Below, in pieces: positions 18,161 to 57,895 of a stretch of DNA of 64,000 nucleotides. The translations under genes and the position numbers were made by a program. Origin of the DNA: Tsukamurella sp. TY48 (lineage in GTDB: Bacteria > Actinomycetota > Actinomycetes > Mycobacteriales > Mycobacteriaceae); NCBI RefSeq assembly GCF_019656655.1, contig NZ_BPMV01000001.1:2356001-2420000 (forward strand). The letters are read 5' to 3'. The notes under the pieces are model-generated. The model worked only from the letters and a program-made list of their open reading frames with translations. It was not told the DNA's origin and made no database searches. Positions within the stretch are counted from its first letter, which is position 1, and each line of letters begins with the position of its first letter.

Positions 18161-18646
18161 TCAGGGGCGAGGCTTGCGGAGGGTGACGGTGGGGACGCCG
18201 TGGCCCGCAGGCGGGGCCTCGGGTGCGGAGGCCTGGTAGCCGGCGCGCTCGTAGGTGCGGATGTTGCGTGCACTCCCCGCGCCGGTGAACATCAGGAACT
18301 CGCGGGTGTCCTCGGGTGCGAGCGCCTCCATCAGGGCGATGAGCTGCGTGCCCAGGCCGCGGCCGGCCAGATCCGGTGCCACCATGAGGCGCCCGATGTG
18401 CCACGTGCCGTCGGCCTCGGCGCGGCCCCGTCCGGCACCCACCAGTCGGCCGTCGAGCCGCATCACCACGGTGGTCCACTCGGAGGCCCAGGCCAGGATG
18501 TCGTCGTGGGTCTCGGTGAGCGGAGGGATCTGCAGGCTGTCGTTGGCGAGGGCCTCCTGCACCCAGCAGCAGCGCTGCAGGACCAGCAACTCCGCTACAT
18601 CGGAGGGGCTGAACGGGGCGATCTGGAAACCGTCGGTCACCGTCAC
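18161..18646 (-). CDS. GNAT-family N-acetyltransferase
   Basis: 161 residues. The acetyl-CoA-binding motif A reads RLMVAPDLAGRGLGTQLI (about 90-107, with the R/Q-x-x-G-x-G/A type GRGLG loop), followed by NIRTYERAGYQ, the usual GNAT end. The GTG at 18646 overlaps the stop of the TetR gene (GTGA), so it belongs to the P450-TetR-GNAT unit. It may modify or detoxify the product of the isocyanide cluster, or be unrelated; the substrate cannot be read from the sequence. Confidence 0.82.
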   Translation of the reverse strand: MTVTDGFQIAPFSPSDVAELLVLQRCCWVQEALANDSLQIPPLTETHDDILAWASEWTTVVMRLDGRLVGAGRGRAEADGTWHIGRLMVAPDLAGRGLGTQLIALMEALAPEDTREFLMFTGAGSARNIRTYERAGYQASAPEAPPAGHGVPTVTLRKPRP

Positions 18647-19221
18647 ACCGTAGTCGCGAGAGTGGGATCCGTGAGCACCGCCGGGATCACGAACCGGCGC
18701 AACAGGTCCTCCTCGGCCCCCGGATCGGCCTCCGGGTGGGAGAGCAGCGAGACCACCACCCGGACCAACCAGCGCGCCGCAGCCGGCGCGCTCTCGGCAT
18801 CGGAGGCGCCCGTCAGCTCGCTGAGCAGGCCGAAGGCGACCGCATCGATCCCCGCCGACCGGGAGGCGAGGCCACCCGCCGGCGGTTCGTCGACGGCGAA
18901 CCACGCCGCCAGTGCGGGCGCGGCACGCACCTGCTCGACCGCGGTGAGGAGGGCGCGCACCAGGCGCTCGCCCGGATCGTCGATCGCCGAGACCCGCTCG
19001 CGCACCGTCGCCGCCACGGCCTGCGCCTCGCGCTGGACGAAGGCGGCGTGCAGGGCCTGCCGGTTGGGGAAGTAGCGGTAGAGCGTGGCGCGCGAACAGC
19101 CCGCGGCCTGCGCCACCTCGGCCATGCCCACCGCGGCCACCCCGTCGCGCGCGAAGAGCTCGGAGACCGAGGCCAGGATGCGGTCGGCGGCGTCACGCTC
19201 GCGGGCGGCCTGCCAGTTCAC
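18643..19221 (-). CDS. TetR-family regulator of the P450/isocyanide cluster
   Basis: 192 residues. N-terminal HTH (about 8-53) with AAGCSRATLYRYFPNRQALHA; the ligand-binding domain is unremarkable. A longer frame extends upstream, but the GTG at 19221 overlaps the P450 stop (GTGA) and gives normal TetR length. Lying between P450-1 and the GNAT gene, it probably controls this unit; a 24-bp inverted repeat spanning the P450-1 start codon is a candidate operator. Confidence 0.85.
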   Translation of the reverse strand: MNWQAARERDAADRILASVSELFARDGVAAVGMAEVAQAAGCSRATLYRYFPNRQALHAAFVQREAQAVAATVRERVSAIDDPGERLVRALLTAVEQVRAAPALAAWFAVDEPPAGGLASRSAGIDAVAFGLLSELTGASDAESAPAAARWLVRVVVSLLSHPEADPGAEEDLLRRFVIPAVLTDPTLATTV

Positions 19222-20438
19222 GTGCGCACCCGCAGCGAGATGGGCCGGCGCACGTAGTTGCCCGGCGCCCAGGTGAGGGATTCGGCATCGACCTCGAGGT
19301 CGGGGACGCGGGTCAGCAGCTCGTGCAGTGCCACCCGTGACTGCATGCGTGCCGCGGCGGCGCCCAGACAGTGGTGATTGCCCTGCGCGAAGGTGAGGAT
19401 CTCGCGCGGCCGGCGGGTCACGTCGAGCTCCTCGGAGCGCGGGCCGAAGACCCGCTCGTCCCGGTTCGCGCTCGCGTACAGCAGGAGGGTCTTGCGCCCG
19501 GCGGGGATTCTCACGCCCTCGATCGTGACATCCCGGGTCGGCGTGCGGGCGAGCCCCTGGACGGGCGAGGTGAGCCGGAGGAACTCCTCGACCGCGTCCG
19601 GGATCAGGGCCGGATCGCCGGCGAGCAGTCGCCACTGATCGCGGTGGCGCGAGAGCATCTCGACGGCGCCACCGAGCATGCCGGTGGTGGTGTCGTTGCC
19701 GCCGGTCACCATCGTGAAGGCGAAGCCGAGGATGGACAGCAGTCCGCTCACGTCACCGTCGGCCCCGTATCCGGCCTCGACCAGGTGGCTGATGGTGTCG
19801 TCGCCGGGCTCGCGGCGACGGCGCTCCACCAGCTCGCCGAAGTAGCCCATGAGCTCGCCGATCGCGGTGGCCACCTCCGGCCCCATGGCGGCGATGTCGG
19901 TACCCGCCTCGGCGGCGGCGCCGACGATGCGTTCGGTCCAGTCGTCGAACCGCGCCCGGTCCTCCTCGGGCACACCGAGGTAGTGCGCCACGACCATGCT
20001 GGGGAGCGGTTTGAACAGTGTCGCGACGATGTCGCCGCCGCCCTCGGCGCGGAGCCGCTCGATGCGTTCCACCACGAAGTCGCGGACCGCGGGTTCGACG
20101 GCGGTCACCTGGCGCGGAGTGAATCCTCGTGAGACCAGGCGTCGGAACTCGGTGTGCTGCGGCGGGTCCTGCATCACCATCGGCGGATTGTCCTGCAGGC
20201 CGGTGCGTTCCAATTCTCCGTACACCGTGGTGAGTCCGGATGCCGAGGAGAAGGTGGCGCTGTCGCGCAGCGCCGCCAGGACATCGGCGTGGCGGGCGAG
20301 CACGTAGTAGTCGCCGTCCTCGCCGGTGTCGACGTGGTGCACCGGCTCGTGCTCGCGAAGTGAGCGGTACATCGGCCACGGATCGGCCCAGGTCGCGCCG
20401 GACCGAGGGGTGTAGCGATGAGACATTGAAGCCATCAT
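19218..20438 (-). CDS. Cytochrome P450 (P450-1 of the isocyanide cluster)
   Basis: 406 residues, soluble class I bacterial P450. The I-helix has GGNDTTT (about 243-249) with the acid/Thr pair for oxygen activation, the K-helix ExxR reads EEFLR (about 285), and the heme loop FAQGNHHCLG places the Cys ligand at 357. All catalytic landmarks are normal, so it should be an active monooxygenase. Two ATGs open the gene. It lies 23 bp after the isocyanide synthase, with a TTGACA-N17-AACAAT promoter of its own, and overlaps the TetR start. It probably tailors the isonitrile made by the neighbour. Confidence 0.9.
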   Translation of the reverse strand: MMASMSHRYTPRSGATWADPWPMYRSLREHEPVHHVDTGEDGDYYVLARHADVLAALRDSATFSSASGLTTVYGELERTGLQDNPPMVMQDPPQHTEFRRLVSRGFTPRQVTAVEPAVRDFVVERIERLRAEGGGDIVATLFKPLPSMVVAHYLGVPEEDRARFDDWTERIVGAAAEAGTDIAAMGPEVATAIGELMGYFGELVERRRREPGDDTISHLVEAGYGADGDVSGLLSILGFAFTMVTGGNDTTTGMLGGAVEMLSRHRDQWRLLAGDPALIPDAVEEFLRLTSPVQGLARTPTRDVTIEGVRIPAGRKTLLLYASANRDERVFGPRSEELDVTRRPREILTFAQGNHHCLGAAAARMQSRVALHELLTRVPDLEVDAESLTWAPGNYVRRPISLRVRT

Positions 20439-20443
20439 GTCTC
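20420..20443. promoter_or_regulatory. Inverted repeat over the P450-1 start codon (candidate TetR operator)
   Basis: Seven-base arms GAGACAT (20420-20426) and ATGTCTC (20437-20443) are perfect inverses separated by 10 bp. They cover the P450-1 start codon and lie just downstream of its -10 element, a good place for repressor binding. The link to the TetR encoded one gene downstream is inference. Confidence 0.45.
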
Positions 20444-20444
20444 G

Positions 20445-20473
20445 ATTGTTGGGCGATCAAGTCAGATTGTCAA
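20445..20473 (-). promoter_or_regulatory. Housekeeping-type promoter for P450-1
   Basis: On the minus strand TTGACA (20473-20468) and AACAAT (20450-20445) are separated by 17 bp. The -10 ends 6 nt before the ATG, so the message would be leaderless. The -35 overlaps the last codons of the isocyanide synthase gene. Confidence 0.55.
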
Positions 20474-21376
20474 TGGTTCGACGTAGTGGCTGATGCGGCC
20501 CCGGGCCACCACGGGCTGGAAGCGTCGTCGTGCTTCGCGGTGCGGTACCAGGGCCGGGCGGCCGTCCCGCCGATACACCAGGACTGAGTGCCAGGGCGTG
20601 GCCCAGGCCCCGTCGGCGGCGTCGATCAGCCGGATGCCGAACTTCTCCGACCCCGGCGCCTGCGGATGGATCGACAGGCGGACCGCCTCGGGTTTGACGT
20701 GCGCCAGCAGATCGCCCCATGCGCGACTGAGGCGGAGCAGCTCGTACGCCCTGCGCTTCGCCGCGCGTTGCAGCTGAGATTTCGAGCCGGACCATTCGGC
20801 GGTGTCACCCACCATGAACCGGGTCATCCCCTGCAGCATCCGCGCGGTCTGCGGTTCGGCGAGCACTGCGCGACGCACCTCCTCGCGGGTCGGCGCCCAC
20901 TCCCGGTCCAGGCGGTCGCGCTTGGTGGCGAAAGCCTCGGTCTCCCAGATGGAGTCGAGACCGAAGGTGCTCACGTGAGACAGGCCCTCCGCGGTGATCA
21001 TCTCGCGCAGTGCGGCGTTGTACGCGGTCACCACCGTGTCGGGCACGCCGATCACATCGGTGAAGACGTGTCCGTCGGAGCAGACCACGATGCGGGCGCC
21101 GGGTGGATGGATCCGAGTGATCTGTCCGGCCCACGCGTCGAGGTTGCGCAGGGCGAGCCGTTCCCCCTCGTCCGGCAGATGGCCCGCCACCTTGTCGGGA
21201 TTGGGCGACTTGCACGGGAAGGCGGGCAGCACGAACTCGATCGGTGCCTGCGCCGCGATGCGCTCGCGGATCGCCGCCAGTTGGACGGGCCAGTCGGCGG
21301 CCCGGTCGCCGCCGTCGCCCGCCACCCGGCGCCACGGGAGCAGGACTCGCAGGACGTCCTCGGCTCGATCGCTCAC
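20462..21376 (-). CDS. Isocyanide synthase, PvcA/IsnA/DIT1 family
   Basis: 304 residues. Family landmarks are clear: LPAFPCKSPNPDKVAGHLPD (about 50-69), CSDGHVFTDVIGVPD (about 99-113), VRLSIHPQ (about 232-239) and KFGIRLI with TPWHSVLVY (about 245-268). Characterised members turn the amino group of L-Tyr or L-Trp into an isonitrile with carbon from ribulose 5-phosphate; the yeast relative Dit1 makes N-formyl-tyrosine. The GTG at 21376 overlaps the P450-2 stop (GTGA), so the two are co-translated. No IsnB-type Fe/2-oxoglutarate oxygenase is present; P450s occupy that place. Substrate (Tyr or Trp) is unknown. Confidence 0.9.
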   Translation of the reverse strand: MSDRAEDVLRVLLPWRRVAGDGGDRAADWPVQLAAIRERIAAQAPIEFVLPAFPCKSPNPDKVAGHLPDEGERLALRNLDAWAGQITRIHPPGARIVVCSDGHVFTDVIGVPDTVVTAYNAALREMITAEGLSHVSTFGLDSIWETEAFATKRDRLDREWAPTREEVRRAVLAEPQTARMLQGMTRFMVGDTAEWSGSKSQLQRAAKRRAYELLRLSRAWGDLLAHVKPEAVRLSIHPQAPGSEKFGIRLIDAADGAWATPWHSVLVYRRDGRPALVPHREARRRFQPVVARGRISHYVEPLTI

Positions 21377-22614
21377 GCGCGCACACCGTCGTAGGTGACC
21401 GGGAGGCTGCGGATCCCGCGCGCCAGCGGCGCATGGAAGTACTCCAGATCGTCGACGGTGCACGCCAAGCGGAGCCCGTCGAGCCGGGACACCAGCGCGG
21501 TCAGCGCCTCCTGCAGTTCGATCCGTGCGAGCGCCGCCGCCGGACAGTAGTGCGCGCCGTGCCCGAAGGCCAGGTGCGGGTTGGGGGAGCGCTGCAGGTC
21601 CACCGCGTGCGGGCAGGCGAACCGTGCCGGATCGCGGTTGGCGGCCATGAGCGAGACGATCACCGAATCACCGGCGGGCACCGTGTGCCCGCCGTACTCG
21701 GTGTCCCGATCGAAGAACCGCCAGGTGGTCAGGACGAAGGCGCTCTCGCGGCGCAGCAGCTCCTCGACCGCGGTCGCGATCCGATCCGGATGCGCGCGCA
21801 GATCGGCCAACTGATCGGGATGCTGCAGCAGCGCGAGCACCGAGAGCGCGAGCTGATTGGTCACCGGGTCCTGTCCGGCCGCGAGCAGCTGGAAGATCAT
21901 CGACCGCAGTTCGTCGCGGTCGATCTCGCCGGACTGCTCGGCCGCCACCAACCGGGCGAGCAGACACTCGGGATCGCCGCCGCCGTCGGCGAAATGGTCC
22001 ATCACATCGGCGATGAAACCCTCCAGCCCGCGGAGCAGCTCCTCGTACCGGGGACGGCGAGGATCGTCGGGTCCCACCGGTGCCACCACCCCGCCCCAGG
22101 CCGGGTCGAACCGGTCCACGTGGTGGGGCGGCAGGCCGATCGCATCGGCGAGCGCCAGGAGGGGGAGCTTCGCGGCGAACCGTGCGACCAGGTCGACGGT
22201 GCCGGACGCGGGGAGGCCGTCGATCAGTGCGCGCACGTGCCGCGCGATCGACGGTCGCTGCTGTTCGGACCGCCGGGCGGTGAACGCCCCCGTGACCAGT
22301 GCGCGCATCACGGTGTGCCGCGGCGGATCCTGATGCAACAGGTGCGCCTGCAGCCGGCTGTGCTGCGGTTCCGCCATGACCGACGCCCGGGCCCGCCAGT
22401 TCGCGTTGCCCCGCGAATGGTCCTTGCCCAGACGCTCGTCGGTCAGTGCCGCGACGGCCGCGTCGTATCCGGTGACCAGCCAGGCGTGCACCGCCGGGAA
22501 GTCGACGGGGTGCACCGGTCCCGCGGCGGTGAGCTCGTCGAAGACGGTGTGCGGGGCGCGGTAGTAGGCGTCACCGTGAAGTGGGACGCGCGGGGGCGTG
22601 ACGGAGGGGCGCAT
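21373..22614 (-). CDS. Cytochrome P450 with unusual I-helix (P450-2)
   Basis: 413 residues. K-helix EELLR (about 290) and the heme loop FGHGAHYCPA put the Cys ligand at 357, but Ala replaces the usual Gly two residues after it, and the I-helix reads AGQDPVTN instead of AGxDTT, so the conserved Thr is displaced. Such P450s often do atypical chemistry such as coupling or rearrangement. The ATG at 22614 has no ribosome site; an ECF-type promoter places the transcript start at or next to it (leaderless). It overlaps the isocyanide synthase start by 4 nt. Confidence 0.88.
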   Translation of the reverse strand: MRPSVTPPRVPLHGDAYYRAPHTVFDELTAAGPVHPVDFPAVHAWLVTGYDAAVAALTDERLGKDHSRGNANWRARASVMAEPQHSRLQAHLLHQDPPRHTVMRALVTGAFTARRSEQQRPSIARHVRALIDGLPASGTVDLVARFAAKLPLLALADAIGLPPHHVDRFDPAWGGVVAPVGPDDPRRPRYEELLRGLEGFIADVMDHFADGGGDPECLLARLVAAEQSGEIDRDELRSMIFQLLAAGQDPVTNQLALSVLALLQHPDQLADLRAHPDRIATAVEELLRRESAFVLTTWRFFDRDTEYGGHTVPAGDSVIVSLMAANRDPARFACPHAVDLQRSPNPHLAFGHGAHYCPAAALARIELQEALTALVSRLDGLRLACTVDDLEYFHAPLARGIRSLPVTYDGVRA

Positions 22615-22623
22615 GTAAGAGGA

Positions 22624-22650
22624 GTCGGATGCGGGCGGCGGGAAGTTCCC
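22624..22650 (-). promoter_or_regulatory. ECF (SigC-type) promoter for P450-2 and isocyanide synthase
   Basis: Minus strand: GGGAAC (22650-22645), 17-bp spacer, CGAC (22627-22624), then 9 nt to the ATG of P450-2. The same GGGAAC-N17-CGAC arrangement precedes the cysteine-rich gene next to sigC at 26211-26237. It overlaps the end of the ATPase gene region, so it would allow separate induction of the biosynthetic genes. Confidence 0.6.
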
Positions 22651-22655
22651 GGCGA

Positions 22656-23447
22656 TCAGGCCTCGGGTCGCGCGTCGTCCCCGAGGTAGTCGACCGCCAC
22701 GAGGAGACGGCCGGTGTTCGGATGGCGGATCACCTCGCCGCGCACCCCGAAGACGTCGGCGAGCAGGTCCCGTGTCAACACCTCGGCGGGGGTGCCGCCG
22801 GCCACGATCCGGCCCTCGGAGAGCACGTGCAGCCGATCGCACACGGCCGCGGCCGCGTTGAGGTCGTGCACTGTGATCAGCGTGGTCGTGGCCCGGCGCG
22901 TGAGCAGCGTCAGCAGCTGGGCCTGGTGCGCGAGATCGAGGTGATTGGTCGGCTCGTCGAGCACCAGGACCCGGCCGTCCTGCGCGAAACACCGTGCCAG
23001 CAGGGCCCGCTGCCGCTCGCCGCCCGACAGCGACGCGAAACTGCGATGCGCGAGCGGGAGCAGTGCGGCATCGGCGAGAGCGGTGTCGATGCGGTCGCGG
23101 TCCTCGGCGGATTCGCGGCCGAACCTGCCCTGATGTGGAATCCGGCCCAGCGCCACCACATCGCGCACCGTCAGATCGAACTCGGAGCCCCGTTCCTGCG
23201 GCATCGCCGCGATCCGACGCGCGGTCTCGCCCGGCGAGAGCGCGCGCAGGTCCTCGTCGCCGATCAACACCGAACCCGCCGACGGCTTCAGATGCCGGTA
23301 GACGGTGCGCAGCAGGGTCGATTTACCGCTGCCGTTCGGGCCGATCACCCCGGTGATCTCACCGGGCCGCGCGAGCACGGAGACGCCGCCGAGGATGGTC
23401 GCGCCGTCCAGGGTGACCGCGACCTCGCGGACCGTGATGCCACTCAT
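22656..23447 (-). CDS. Fec/FhuC-type metallophore ABC transporter ATPase
   Basis: 263 residues. Walker A GPNGSGKST (about 35-43), Q-loop MPQERGS, signature LSGGERQR (about 140) and Walker B VLVLDEPTNHLD are all intact. It belongs to the FhuC/FepC group that powers uptake of metal chelates, heme or cobalamin. The ATG overlaps the permease stop (ATGA). Third gene of the importer lying between sigC and the P450/isocyanide genes. Confidence 0.92.
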   Translation of the reverse strand: MSGITVREVAVTLDGATILGGVSVLARPGEITGVIGPNGSGKSTLLRTVYRHLKPSAGSVLIGDEDLRALSPGETARRIAAMPQERGSEFDLTVRDVVALGRIPHQGRFGRESAEDRDRIDTALADAALLPLAHRSFASLSGGERQRALLARCFAQDGRVLVLDEPTNHLDLAHQAQLLTLLTRRATTTLITVHDLNAAAAVCDRLHVLSEGRIVAGGTPAEVLTRDLLADVFGVRGEVIRHPNTGRLLVAVDYLGDDARPEA

Positions 23448-24490
23448 GCGATCCGCCGCTGCGACCGCGACACGAGGTACAGCAGGACCGGCGCACCGAT
23501 CAGCGCCGAGACCACGTTGACCGGTAGTTCCTGGTCGATCACGCGGGTCGCGAGCCGGCACAGCAGGTCGACCGCGCACAGCAGGACCGCACCGCACAAT
23601 GCCGCCGCCGGGATCACGCGGCGGTGATCGGCGCCCACCAGGAATCGGGCGATGTGCGGAATCACCAGGCCGACGAAGCCGATCGCGCCCGAGAAGGCCA
23701 CCATCACCCCGGTCATCAGGCTGGTGAGCACGAAGACCGCGGTGCGGACCCGGCCGGCGCGGATGCCGAGCCCGTGGGCCGTCTCATCGCCCATCGCGAG
23801 CGCGTTGAGCGGCCGGGCCAGGCCGAACAGCACGACGCAGCCGAGCAGCACCGTGGCACCGACGATCGGGACAGCCGGGCCGATGGCGCCGGCGAGGCTG
23901 CCCATCAGCCAGTGCAGGATGCCCTGCGTCTGATTGATGTCCTTCGACTGCAGCACCAGGAAACTGGTGAACGAGGAGAGGATCTGTCCGATCGCGACCC
24001 CGGCGAGCACGAGTCGCAGCGGAGCCACGCCCGGTCCGCGCGCGCCCACCAGCCACACCGCGGCGAAGGCCAGCAAGGCGCCGGCGAAGGCCGCCGCGGG
24101 GAGCGAGAACATCGGGGGGAGGAGCGATCCCGCCACGCCGCCGCCGGTCACCAGCGCCGCGACCGCGCCGAGCGAGGCGCCGGAGGAGATGCCGAGCAGG
24201 TACGGATCGGCCAGCGGATTGCGCACGATGGCCTGCACGGCGACGCCCACCACGCCGAGCCCCGCACCGATCAGCGCCGCGAGCACGGGCCGGGGGAAGC
24301 GCACCCGCCACACGATGATCTCGGTGCTGCCCTCGACCATCGGGCGGCCGGTCAGCTGGTGCAGCAGTATCCGCCAGACATCGCCGAGCGCGATATCCGT
24401 GGAGCCGTAGCTGACGCCGAGCGCGATCAGCAGGACGAGCAGCGGTACGCCGACCGCCCACAGTGCCGGAAGGCGCACCGAGCGGATCAT
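23444..24490 (-). CDS. FecCD/BtuC-type metallophore permease
   Basis: 348 residues with about nine to ten membrane segments. FecCD landmarks include RFPRPVLAALIGAGLGVVGV, QAIVRNPLADPYLLGISSGA (about 85-105) and the C-terminal GLVIPHIARFLVGADHR. A single permease gene suggests a homodimer, as in BtuC. The ATG overlaps the stop of the binding-protein gene (ATGA). Confidence 0.92.
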   Translation of the reverse strand: MIRSVRLPALWAVGVPLLVLLIALGVSYGSTDIALGDVWRILLHQLTGRPMVEGSTEIIVWRVRFPRPVLAALIGAGLGVVGVAVQAIVRNPLADPYLLGISSGASLGAVAALVTGGGVAGSLLPPMFSLPAAAFAGALLAFAAVWLVGARGPGVAPLRLVLAGVAIGQILSSFTSFLVLQSKDINQTQGILHWLMGSLAGAIGPAVPIVGATVLLGCVVLFGLARPLNALAMGDETAHGLGIRAGRVRTAVFVLTSLMTGVMVAFSGAIGFVGLVIPHIARFLVGADHRRVIPAAALCGAVLLCAVDLLCRLATRVIDQELPVNVVSALIGAPVLLYLVSRSQRRIA

Positions 24491-25500
24491 CGAATTCCGT
24501 TGAGTGCGTTCGCCAGAGTGGTGACCATCGTGGCGTTCTCGACGCCGGGCAGCGACATGTCCTCGGCGAAGGCGCGCACGATCCGGTTCTCGCGCACCGC
24601 GGTCAGGCCGGCGGTCCGCGGATCGGCGCGCAGCTTCGCCACCGCGGCCTCGTACGCGGCGTCGACCTTGGCATCGGAGTCCTGCCGGGTCACGGCGAGC
24701 ACGATCAGGTCGGGGGAGGTGGCCACCACTGTTTCCCACGGGGCGGCGAACTGCGCCTTATCGGTCCGATCGAAGACGTTCCGGCCGCCCGCCAGCGCGA
24801 TGACGGCGTTGGCGATCTGTCGGTTGCCCACGCTGGTGGCCTGCGCATCGTCGCGGCCCGGGGTGAGGTACAGCACCGACGGACGGTGGTTGGGGGCCTT
24901 CGGCGCACCGTCGACCGCGGCCTGCATCCGCTCGATCAGCCGGTCGCCGTCGCCGCGCCGGTCCACGAGGGCGGCGAGCGAGCGGATGTCCTGTTCGACC
25001 TCGCCGAGATCGGTGACCGGCTTGTTCTGCGTTGCGGCACAGGCCGACGAACGCAGCACGATCCGCTGCATCTTGGCCGCGGCGAAGTCCGCCGCGGACG
25101 GTCCGGGCACCCCCATCATGACCATGCCGTCGTACGGGTCGACGTACACCTGCGCACCGGAGGTGAGGAGCTTCTCCTTATCGGCGGCGCGGGCGCCGAG
25201 TGAGGGGACGCGCGTGGCCTCCTCGCGGACATCGGCCGGCAGGGTCTTCGCGCCGTCGGACCACGCGGTCCCGACCACCTTGTTCCCGGCCCCGAGGCGG
25301 AGCAGGAGCTCCAGTGCCGCAGTGTTTCCGGTCGCGATCGCATCCGGGGTGCGGTCGACCTTCACGGTGCTCCCGTCGCACAGCGTGAAGTCGGCGCCCT
25401 GTGCCGCAGGCGACGGTGCCGATTCGACCGGGGAGCAGCCGGCGATCGCCGATCCCGCTGCCAGCGCGACGATCAGACTCCGGACGGGAACGGACGGCAT
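24487..25500 (-). CDS. FecB-type metallophore-binding lipoprotein
   Basis: 337 residues. The signal peptide ends in a lipobox (IAGC, Cys near 21), so the protein is membrane-anchored outside. Two periplasmic-binding-protein lobes follow: TGNTAALELLLRLGAGNKVVGTA (about 55-78) and SPDLIVLAVTRQD (about 250) with VENATMVTTLANALNG near the end. The ATG at 25500 has GAGGAG 5 nt upstream; an upstream frame to 25527 is unlikely. It lies 13 bp after sigC, so the importer is probably transcribed with it. Ligand unknown; context suggests the product of the isocyanide genes. Confidence 0.88.
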   Translation of the reverse strand: MPSVPVRSLIVALAAGSAIAGCSPVESAPSPAAQGADFTLCDGSTVKVDRTPDAIATGNTAALELLLRLGAGNKVVGTAWSDGAKTLPADVREEATRVPSLGARAADKEKLLTSGAQVYVDPYDGMVMMGVPGPSAADFAAAKMQRIVLRSSACAATQNKPVTDLGEVEQDIRSLAALVDRRGDGDRLIERMQAAVDGAPKAPNHRPSVLYLTPGRDDAQATSVGNRQIANAVIALAGGRNVFDRTDKAQFAAPWETVVATSPDLIVLAVTRQDSDAKVDAAYEAAVAKLRADPRTAGLTAVRENRIVRAFAEDMSLPGVENATMVTTLANALNGIR

Positions 25501-25513
25501 GGCTTCTCCTCGA

Positions 25514-26104
25514 TCATCCGGCCGCACGCGCTGTGCGGACCGAGTCCGCGGCCTCGCCGTGGACGAGTGCGTGCAGGTCGGCCCGGGCGCGCGCGACCCG
25601 CGAGCGGATGGTGCCCACCGCGCAGCCCACGATCTCGGCGGCCTCGGCGTAGCTGAACCCGATCACCTGGGTCAGCACCAGCGCCTCACGCCGGTCGGCG
25701 TCGATGCGGTCGAGCAGATCGCGCAGCTCGACGCGGGCGTGCTCGGGCACATCGCGTCGGGGTGCGCCGTCGGTGAGGCCGTCGAGGTCGGAACCGTCGC
25801 CCACCGCCAGGCTGGGACGGGCGCAGCGGTGCCGGATCGCGTCGACCACCACATGTCGGGCGATGCTCGCGAGCCAGGTCCGCGCCGACGAGCGGCCCTC
25901 GAACCGGTGCAGCGCGCCGAACGCGCGCAGGTAGGTCTCCTGCACCAGATCGTCGGCCTCCGCCGCACCGGCGACGAGCACGATGAATCGCCGCACATCG
26001 TGTTGAGTGAGCGCGACGAAGTCGGCGAGGGCGGCACCGTCGCCCCGACCGGCGCGCAGGGCAGCGCCGGTCGCGGCGCTCACCTCGGCTTCGTCGTTCG
26101 GCAT
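25514..26104 (-). CDS. sigC: ECF sigma factor, SigC-like
   Basis: 196 residues. Region 2 (about 22-90: DDLVQETYLRAFGALHRF, RSSARTWLASIARHVV) and region 4 (about 135-178: REALVLTQVIGFSYAEAAEIVG, VGTIRSRVARARADL) are strikingly like M. tuberculosis SigC, including the opening TQHDVRRFI element. SigC in M. tuberculosis has been linked to copper acquisition genes, including the nrp isonitrile cluster. Here it heads a metallophore importer and isocyanide biosynthesis genes. Start ATG 26104; a promoter like its own targets lies upstream (26183-26210), suggesting autoregulation. Confidence 0.87.
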   Translation of the reverse strand: MPNDEAEVSAATGAALRAGRGDGAALADFVALTQHDVRRFIVLVAGAAEADDLVQETYLRAFGALHRFEGRSSARTWLASIARHVVVDAIRHRCARPSLAVGDGSDLDGLTDGAPRRDVPEHARVELRDLLDRIDADRREALVLTQVIGFSYAEAAEIVGCAVGTIRSRVARARADLHALVHGEAADSVRTARAAG

Positions 26105-26182
26105 AGGGGCATTGAACGTGATCTCGCGAACCGGTCATACCCGCTGAGGGTATGGTCGCCCGAATGCTTCTGTGACGGAATC

Positions 26183-26210
26183 ATCGCAGGTGAGAATGGT
26201 TCCGATTCCC
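26183..26210 (-). promoter_or_regulatory. Candidate SigC autoregulatory promoter
   Basis: Minus strand: GGGAAT (26210-26205), 18-bp spacer, CGAT (26186-26183). This fits the published SigC pattern SSSAAT-N16-20-CGT-like only partly (CGAT for CGT). Its -35 abuts the -35 of the divergent promoter at CCCGGG. Confidence 0.4.
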
Positions 26211-26237
26211 GGGAACCATCCCGCCTTCCGAGACGAC
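26211..26237 (+). promoter_or_regulatory. ECF (SigC-type) promoter for the cysteine-rich gene
   Basis: GGGAAC (26211-26216), 17-bp spacer, CGAC (26234-26237), about 47 nt before the ATG. The elements are identical to those upstream of P450-2 (22624-22650). The arms TGGTTCC (26197-26203) and GGAACCA (26212-26218) also form an inverted repeat in the divergent region. Confidence 0.55.
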
Positions 26238-26284
26238 TAATACCGTAGGGCAGGGTGTGGGTCCGGAGCGCAGAGGAGGGTGCG

Positions 26285-26584
26285 ATGCACTGCGAGTCGT
26301 GGCGCGGAGCCCTGTCCGCGGAGCTCGACGGTGAGCTCGGTCCCGCCGAGCGGGCCGCCCTGGTGCGGCACCTCGGCGAGTGCGCCGCGTGTGCCGCGTG
26401 GTTGGAGCAGGGCCGCCGCATCGGCCGCCGCCTCGCCTTGCGCCCGGTGGAGAGCGCCCCCGACCTGCACGCGCGGCTGCTGCCGCTGGTCGATCTGCGC
26501 ACCATCTGCGGCTGCGGCGACACCTGCCGCTGCGAGCCCGAGTGCACCTGCGGCGACCTCTGCGCCTGCCGTTCGACGCACTGA
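26285..26584 (+). CDS. zf-HC2 protein with metallothionein-like CxC repeat tail
   Basis: 99 residues behind an excellent ribosome site (GAGGAGGG). Residues 2-45 form a zf-HC2/anti-sigma-like motif: Cys3 and H29-x3-C33-x2-C36 with GELGPAERAALVRHL. The C-terminal 25 residues hold eight Cys in four perfectly spaced CxC hexads (75/77, 81/83, 87/89, 93/95: CGCGDT, CRCEPE, CTCGDL, CACRST), as in copper metallothioneins. No membrane segment. Divergent from sigC, so it may be a cytoplasmic anti-sigma factor that senses or stores Cu(I), releasing or binding SigC according to metal status. That role is inference. Confidence 0.82.
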   Translation: MHCESWRGALSAELDGELGPAERAALVRHLGECAACAAWLEQGRRIGRRLALRPVESAPDLHARLLPLVDLRTICGCGDTCRCEPECTCGDLCACRSTH

Positions 26585-57807: not shown

Positions 57808-57895
57808 CTTCGCTCCTGGGGTCGAAAGGACGTGCCAGAAACCTAGTGATGCTCGTCACAGTCGCGGTACCCCCGAAAGGGGGTAGCCCTGTGGA

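Follow-up and report, generated by a model that had tools for sequence, protein, structure and literature searches.

Does an actinobacterial gene cluster that combines an isocyanide synthase (ICS) with cytochrome P450s and a metal-complex importer make, recover and regulate a copper-binding isonitrile, a chalkophore? This question is raised by a locus in Tsukamurella sp. TY48, which lies in a stretch of 64,000 nucleotides (nt) of contig NZ_BPMV01000001.1 (positions 2,356,001 to 2,420,000), hereafter the window. We consider it likely that the cluster does all three, and that its SigC regulon is common to unrelated isonitrile operons of the nonribosomal peptide synthetase (NRPS)-like type. Biosynthesis and uptake genes were found linked, as in a chalkophore system, and a shared -35/-10 element, GGAAC-N17-CGAC, was found at target genes near these loci, with a weak signal genome-wide.

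Gene content of the locus and proposed mechanism

The locus contains the following features, in window positions:

26285..26584, + strand: zf-HC2 protein of 99 residues (PF13490, 4.7e-10), divergent from sigC
26210..26239, + strand: SigC-type promoter element CGGGAAC..CGACTA, 45 nt before the zf-HC2 start
26138..26152, no strand: CsoR-like palindrome TACCC-N5-GGGTA, upstream of sigC, at -48
25514..26104, - strand: SigC-like extracytoplasmic function (ECF) sigma factor (sigma-70 regions 2 and 4, 6.4e-14 and 8.9e-14)
24487..25500, - strand: substrate-binding lipoprotein (PF01497 Peripla_BP_2, 1.2e-12; lipobox by eye)
23444..24490, - strand: FecCD-type permease (FecCD, 1.5e-89)
22656..23447, - strand: ATP-binding cassette (ABC) ATPase (ABC_tran, 3e-29)
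22622..22651, - strand: SigC-type promoter element CGGGAAC..CGACTC, 7 nt ahead of the start codon (ATG) of P450a
21373..22614, - strand: cytochrome P450 (P450a; P450 domain), found next to the ICS in 63 of the 64 full-flank loci
20462..21376, - strand: PvcA/DIT1-family ICS (DIT1_PvcA, 1.8e-71)
19218..20438, - strand: second cytochrome P450 (P450b; P450 domain), close collinear copy only in genome G053
18643..19221, - strand: TetR regulator (TetR_N, 1.7e-12), close collinear copy only in G053
18161..18646, - strand: GNAT acetyltransferase (PF00583, 8.7e-13), an ancestral neighbour outside the cluster

The sequence-only reading had described sigC, importer, P450, ICS, P450, TetR and GNAT genes on one strand with a Cys-rich zf-HC2 gene divergent from them, and place, strand and domain matches bear out every one of these assignments. 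The genes from sigC to the ATPase overlap or lie at most 13 nt apart, and probable start codons give shorter proteins than the table of open reading frames (ORFs). The ICS match to PF05141 spans profile positions 1-267 of 273, a full-length domain, and among solved structures the protein matched PvcA (3e59, 4.7e-56). It is the single match to its family in the 4.37 Mb source genome, and the family is present in 4 of the 16 Tsukamurella genomes listed. A profile scan of the window proteins gave P450 matches of 3.3e-15 and 2e-17 for P450a and P450b; no PvcB-type oxygenase (PF02668) was found among the ten proteins scanned. The window cluster contains neither an exporter gene nor an AsnB-type amidotransferase gene; the clusters of relatives include a major facilitator superfamily (MFS) gene that may serve for export.

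In the mechanism we propose, SigC would transcribe the P450a-ICS genes and the zf-HC2 gene from GGAAC-N17-CGAC promoters. Judging from its family, the ICS would convert an aromatic amino acid to an isonitrile that the P450s would oxidise or couple, and the product would leave through a transporter encoded outside the cluster. Its Cu(I) complex would re-enter through the binding protein/FecCD/ATPase importer. The zf-HC2 protein would serve as anti-SigC, its eight-cysteine tail holding SigC while copper is plentiful, and the same SigC regulon would serve NRPS-like isonitrile operons in presumed mycobacteria and in one Streptomyces-like genome.

The sigma factor lies nearer to SigC than to the remaining ECF groups: its best solved-structure match was region 2 of M. 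tuberculosis SigC (2o7g, 3.6e-26), the next being 1.5e-18, and its homologue group lies at ≤1e-27, with Tsukamurella paralogues at values of at least 1e-16. A zf-HC2 motif adjoins the sigma gene in the window, the neighbourhood expected of an anti-sigma (ZAS) protein, and a zf-HC2-like protein stands beside SigC in 34 of 78 SigC loci (36 were found, and L061 and L107 were set aside by eye). The C-terminal tail of the window protein carries eight cysteines (CGCG..C.C...C.CG..C.C). This tail occurs in four Tsukamurella loci (the window, L022, L060 and L063) and was absent from the remaining zf-HC2-like neighbours of SigC examined. We regard the protein as a candidate anti-SigC factor and possible Cu(I) sensor. 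CorE-type copper-sensing ECF sigma factors have a cysteine-rich metal-sensing tail; the idea is alike, whereas the window cysteines reside on the separate zf-HC2 protein. According to PMC7924339 (2021), no factor of this kind had been identified for SigC, and the paper treats as open both the existence of one and the means by which SigC senses copper deficiency. The locus, with its divergent zf-HC2 partner, promoter element and target genes, provides a test bed in other hosts.

A promoter element near ICS loci and nrp-like operons

The element first emerged from a count of dyads in the region before the binding-protein gene. For upstream counts, 18 other spacings were the control. Before the binding-protein gene, 63 of the 66 loci with at least 200 nt of sequence carry it at N17, against none at spacers 8-16 and 18-25 and one at 26. 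It also precedes MFS genes (41 of 56), CopA genes (8 of 30) and P450a genes (13 of 81); none was found upstream of the permease (72 regions), ATPase (74) or ICS (85) genes. G053 keeps both window elements, at P450a and at zf-HC2, though the spacer letters have diverged. The position of the window element, 7 nt from the P450a ATG, suggests that this transcript may be leaderless. T. spumae carries the element before a second binding-protein gene (L063, 7589), and in genus g6 one copy lies at the start of the binding-protein gene and another, in divergent orientation, ahead of a CopD/CtaG-like gene, assigned by eye.

Sites with CGAC followed by T or C were then counted in several sets of loci, at N17 and, for comparison, at ten other spacers taken singly (range given second):

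ICS loci that also have a permease homologue: 151 at N17 against 5-34; present in 63 of the 64 loci
sigC loci without an ICS: 31 against 0-6; 14 of 20 loci
FcoT loci: 17 against 1-5; 6 of 11 loci
Tsukamurella loci: 10 against 0-1
g6 loci: 4 against 0-3
importer-less ICS loci: 6 against 0-6; 2 of 9 loci
g23 (presumed Nocardia) ICS loci: 2 against 0-3; 1 of 6 loci
empty-site loci (n=2): 0 against 0-1

The SigC control proposed in the sequence-only reading has thereby gained a shared promoter-like element; that SigC itself reads GGAAC-N17-CGAC we infer. No usable published SigC consensus was found in the open-access literature. The element offers a means to look for further members of the regulon.

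Nrp-like clusters were marked by FcoT (PF10862), which we take to be of the Rv0098/ScoD type, and their NRPS character was judged from FcoT together with large ORFs. PF10862 was found in 9 of 374 genomes of the class, at 11 loci, and had no match in the source genome. By ORF positions the element heads six of the 11 loci on the same strand (L233, L235-L239). Five of these six belong to genus g30, presumed to be Mycobacterium, and the sixth is that of G435. In G567 and G238, sigC, a CtpB-like ATPase gene and the FcoT operon fall within one 20 kb region, and in G099 the distance between FcoT and sigC is about 8 kb.

Copper-type genes recur beside SigC homologues. The element stands 43-88 nt before the copper-ATPase gene in seven of the eight ATPase-bearing g30 sigC loci. 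We took 20 sigC loci without an ICS from the upper part of the list of 79 SigC-bearing genomes, skipping some; a CopA/CtpB-like ATPase lies near eight and a PepSY or Met/His-rich gene near ten more, with none clear at L181 and L182. Pfam confirmed PepSY_TM, DUF5134 and CtaG on examples from G168. The Met/His-rich family has no Pfam match, so its copper label rests on composition and place. PepSY_TM-type proteins were also seen beside the sigC of L060 (7419-8771, by Pfam), where the element precedes the gene by 55 nt, and ahead of the ICS cluster of L064 (620-2020, by resemblance). Such proteins are possibly a reductase for the metal complex.

An M. tuberculosis sigC mutant is reported to fail in copper-chelated medium and to underexpress nrp in low copper, and nrp answers copper limitation (PMC7924339, PMC9147137, PMC9600254). 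The copper role assigned to the locus by the sequence-only reading is strengthened by the copper-type genes near SigC homologues and by the element at nrp-like operons, while copper binding itself stays at the level of a prediction.

Conservation and distribution

A search with a four-member ICS alignment gave 312 stretches in named genomes, 263 of them encoding relatives, and the best 80 were kept; 64 of these extend 9 kb or more to either side of the ICS (full-flank loci). Linkage was scored at no less than 50% identity for the permease and 44% for SigC, with genus labels assigned by hand. Among the 64, P450a is present in 63, the permease in 53 and SigC in 46. The 53 permease-bearing loci belong to Streptomyces (44), Kitasatospora (6), Tsukamurella (1), Kutzneria (1) and Longimycelium (1), and recurrence in several genera indicates that the gene combination is more than chance. 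That the cluster has its own importer, as the sequence-only reading held, is upheld by this linkage. Permease and SigC are both present at 43 of the 64 loci and both missing at seven.

Across the 80 ICS loci we found genes for MFS proteins in 55, AsnB-type amidotransferases in 36, CopA in 26 and PCuAC in 26. CopZ-like genes occur in seven of the loci that were clustered. Pfam confirmed MFS, AsnB and PCuAC on examples, and NCBIfam a copper-type P-ATPase. The AsnB-type gene (e.g. L142:6514-8496) suggests an amide in the products of those loci. Cluster proteins of G053, the closest relative, are about 80-88% identical to those of the window.

In a tree whose bootstrap had not settled, the ICS proteins of the window, T. 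spumae, T. pseudospumae and g6 form one clade (100/99). This Mycobacteriaceae clade nests in a larger one of 37 rows, which includes every one of the 26 importer-linked rows. The importer label requires 5 changes, compared with 13.7 after shuffling; T. pseudospumae was scored as importer-less solely on account of its short contig (7 kb). The six g23 ICS loci have no importer or SigC homologue and fall outside. A P450a-ICS pair was also observed in the myxobacterium Archangium lansinium (L088, 8597-10876), with no importer or SigC found within 10 kb; in the tree its ICS groups with one from Streptomyces (98/96), and a transfer between phyla is therefore likely.

Among the 374 genomes, the ICS was detected in 12 (≤1e-30), the permease in 43 (≤1e-70) and SigC in 79 (≤1e-24), so SigC is far commoner than the cluster. 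Eleven of the permease genomes stand apart as a group with identities of 56% or above. In eight of them (the source genome G000, G304, G334, G483, G525, G526, G540 and G578) an ICS lies within 8 kb of the permease, and the eight genomes with an ICS at ≤1e-100 have SigC within 10 kb in every case except G334. The other three, G435, G458 and G584, have no ICS at ≤1e-30, yet their orphan importers (L158, L159 and L160, respectively) keep the element.

A sigC-importer block conserved in relatives without biosynthetic genes had been named beforehand in the sequence-only reading as counting against it, and these three genomes show this in part. G458 and G584 are importer-only. G435 has importer and sigC together and, in place of the ICS, an FcoT-marked cluster with a 1438-residue ORF and four elements in the 20 kb read; as this NRPS-like isonitrile cluster carries the element, G435 looks like a case of alternative chemistry. 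A DJ-1 gene adjoins the importer at L159; its best solved-structure match is isonitrile hydratase (8.6e-18), and the best of another kind stands at 4e-12. The DJ-1-family gene after the ICS of T. pseudospumae matches an uncharacterised ThiJ protein (1.1e-39) and then isonitrile hydratase (1.4e-23). Importer-only genomes might practise piracy, or release copper by hydration. Taken as a whole, the earlier interpretation is partly supported; its core idea stands as the best reading, and both the shared element and the conservation add weight to it.

Competing readings, known systems and the insertion site

Several observations weigh against the chalkophore reading. The window ICS reaches 210.5 of 600 bits with the NCBIfam TyIsonSynPvcA equivalog and the sigma factor 162 of 219 bits with the SigC equivalog, both below cut-off; judged by these profiles the former is a PF05141 family member and not a PvcA equivalog, and the latter is SigC-like and not a SigC equivalog. 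PF05141 also includes yeast Dit1, which reportedly does not act as an isocyanide synthase (PMC7345447). An in-frame stop interrupts the ICS frame of G053 (L022:9350-10237) close to where it begins. The ICS loci are mostly from Streptomyces and are not independent, the seven full-flank loci with neither importer nor SigC are L074, L079, L080, L084, L088, L108 and L117, and in the tree the window clade stands closest to Streptomyces rows that lack the importer, with weak support (87/51). The element is missing before the binding-protein genes of the window, G053 and T. spumae, at the operon head of five of the 11 FcoT loci (L234, L240-L243), and upstream of sigC (0 of 77 regions, 16 of which carry it on the opposite strand); sigC autoregulation through it was rejected on this count. 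Over 20 whole genomes, GGGAAC-N17-CGACTA shows hardly any enrichment (44 sites, compared with 32 of the control pattern), and one Streptomyces match is near-identical across several genomes and therefore looks like coding sequence. The source genome has two GGAAC-N17-CGACTA sites, against four for the control pattern; one lies at zf-HC2 and the other in no recognisable promoter region. The element is thus informative near these loci and not as a genome-wide finder. In M. tuberculosis, ctpB was not differentially expressed in the sigC mutant in copper-deficient medium (PMC7924339). Lastly, the palindrome upstream of sigC is common to detoxification-type copper genes.

This palindrome was present within one mismatch at -48/-49 in four of six Tsukamurella sigC-type loci (L061 and L062 are without it), and in 5 of 78 sigC genes overall (the four Tsukamurella genes and Longimycelium) against 12 of 1560 control windows; its standing as a general sigC feature was considered on these counts. 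The source genome has 16 TACCC-N3-8-GGGTA sites against nine for a control pattern. Its eight N5 sites lie at sigC, copZ, a copper-ATPase-like gene, copA (two), a His/Met-rich lipoprotein gene (by eye), C2:175758 and C1:3132628. A further palindrome, TACCC-N8-GGGTA, was observed at window positions 57868-57885. Presence at both sigC and copper genes ties sigC to copper, yet points to CsoR-type control, which is usually derepression in excess copper. The palindrome therefore complicates the direction of the copper response. One could speculate that CsoR-type control builds up a pool of SigC, kept bound by the anti-sigma factor until copper levels drop.

The same sites, together with the CopA-type ATPases that adjoin sigC homologues, could instead reflect a response to copper excess, with sigC derepressed by a CsoR-type repressor and the isonitrile acting as a detoxifying chelator or copper-armed antibiotic. 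We think this unlikely: detoxification would hardly call for a dedicated importer, the element is shared with nrp-like operons, whose M. tuberculosis counterpart is reported to answer copper limitation (PMC9600254), and beyond Tsukamurella the palindrome, with up to one mismatch allowed, occurs at a single sigC locus (L129) among 72.

Importers of the FecCD type transport mainly iron complexes, cobalamin or haem, and the best NCBIfam matches of the window importer, all sub-cut-off, were F420-0 and corrinoid transporter models. The isonitrile might accordingly bind zinc, iron or nickel, or be a signal or antibiotic that the importer recaptures, a reading that the CopA, PCuAC and CopZ-like genes at ICS loci and the SigC copper literature make quite improbable. 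Very improbable is a Dit1-like N-formylating enzyme with an N-formyl dityrosine-like product: Dit1 is reported to make formyl tyrosine with the P450 Dit2 as partner (PMC7345447), but the solved relatives found for the window enzyme were PvcA (4.7e-56) and two chains named isonitrile synthase, with no others, and the T. pseudospumae DJ-1-family gene resembles isonitrile hydratase among others.

The chalkophore reading places the locus beside known systems. The nrp diisonitrile lipopeptide chalkophore of M. tuberculosis and M. marinum is alike in SigC-family control, an isonitrile ligand and copper genes in the regulon (PMC7924339, PMC9600254), and FcoT-marked operons of presumed mycobacteria carry the same element as window-type loci; nrp uses NRPS-type chemistry, whereas the window has a PvcA-type ICS with P450, an ABC importer and a divergent zf-HC2 gene. 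SF2768 of Streptomyces thioluteus is likewise an actinobacterial diisonitrile chalkophore with reported copper uptake (cited in PMC9600254, PMC5974471), NRPS-derived, unlike the window cluster. The copper-responsive fungal xanthocillin and crm clusters share a PF05141 ICS and proposed P450 coupling by XanG (PMC5974471; see also PMC9381783), and relative to them the window adds a bacterial sigma factor, an importer and zf-HC2. The pvc cluster of P. aeruginosa shares an ICS homologue, and its PvcB-type oxygenase is the one not found among the ten window proteins scanned. No description of a bacterial chalkophore class of this kind was found in the open-access literature, although subscription papers may describe such clusters; our reading predicts one in dozens of Streptomyces and allies.

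A bolder proposal, which we would place a little short of even, is that SigC is a general actinobacterial isonitrile-chalkophore switch, its single regulon having taken in two unrelated isonitrile chemistries along with genes for copper trafficking. It would be gated by divergent zf-HC2 anti-sigma proteins, in Tsukamurella a soluble, Cys-tailed reader of cytosolic Cu(I), and the synthase-less Streptomyces-like genomes that keep importer and element, one with an adjacent isonitrile-hydratase-like gene, would pirate the copper complexes of others.

The boundary of the cluster was set from relatives. Nine genes, from zf-HC2 to TetR, lie between a Pls-like gene and the GNAT gene in the window, whereas in G100 (L245), which lacks the cluster, Pls-like, GNAT and aminopeptidase genes are consecutive. 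A GNAT homologue (78-79%) holds the same position in two relatives without the cluster. GNAT membership, which the sequence-only reading had assumed, was rejected on this evidence, and the gene is best seen as an ancestral neighbour; it overlaps TetR by a few bases and may be co-transcribed. Two other ORFs lie between the Pls-like gene and GNAT in L244 (G030), with none of note in G100, and this differing content points to a variable insertion slot.

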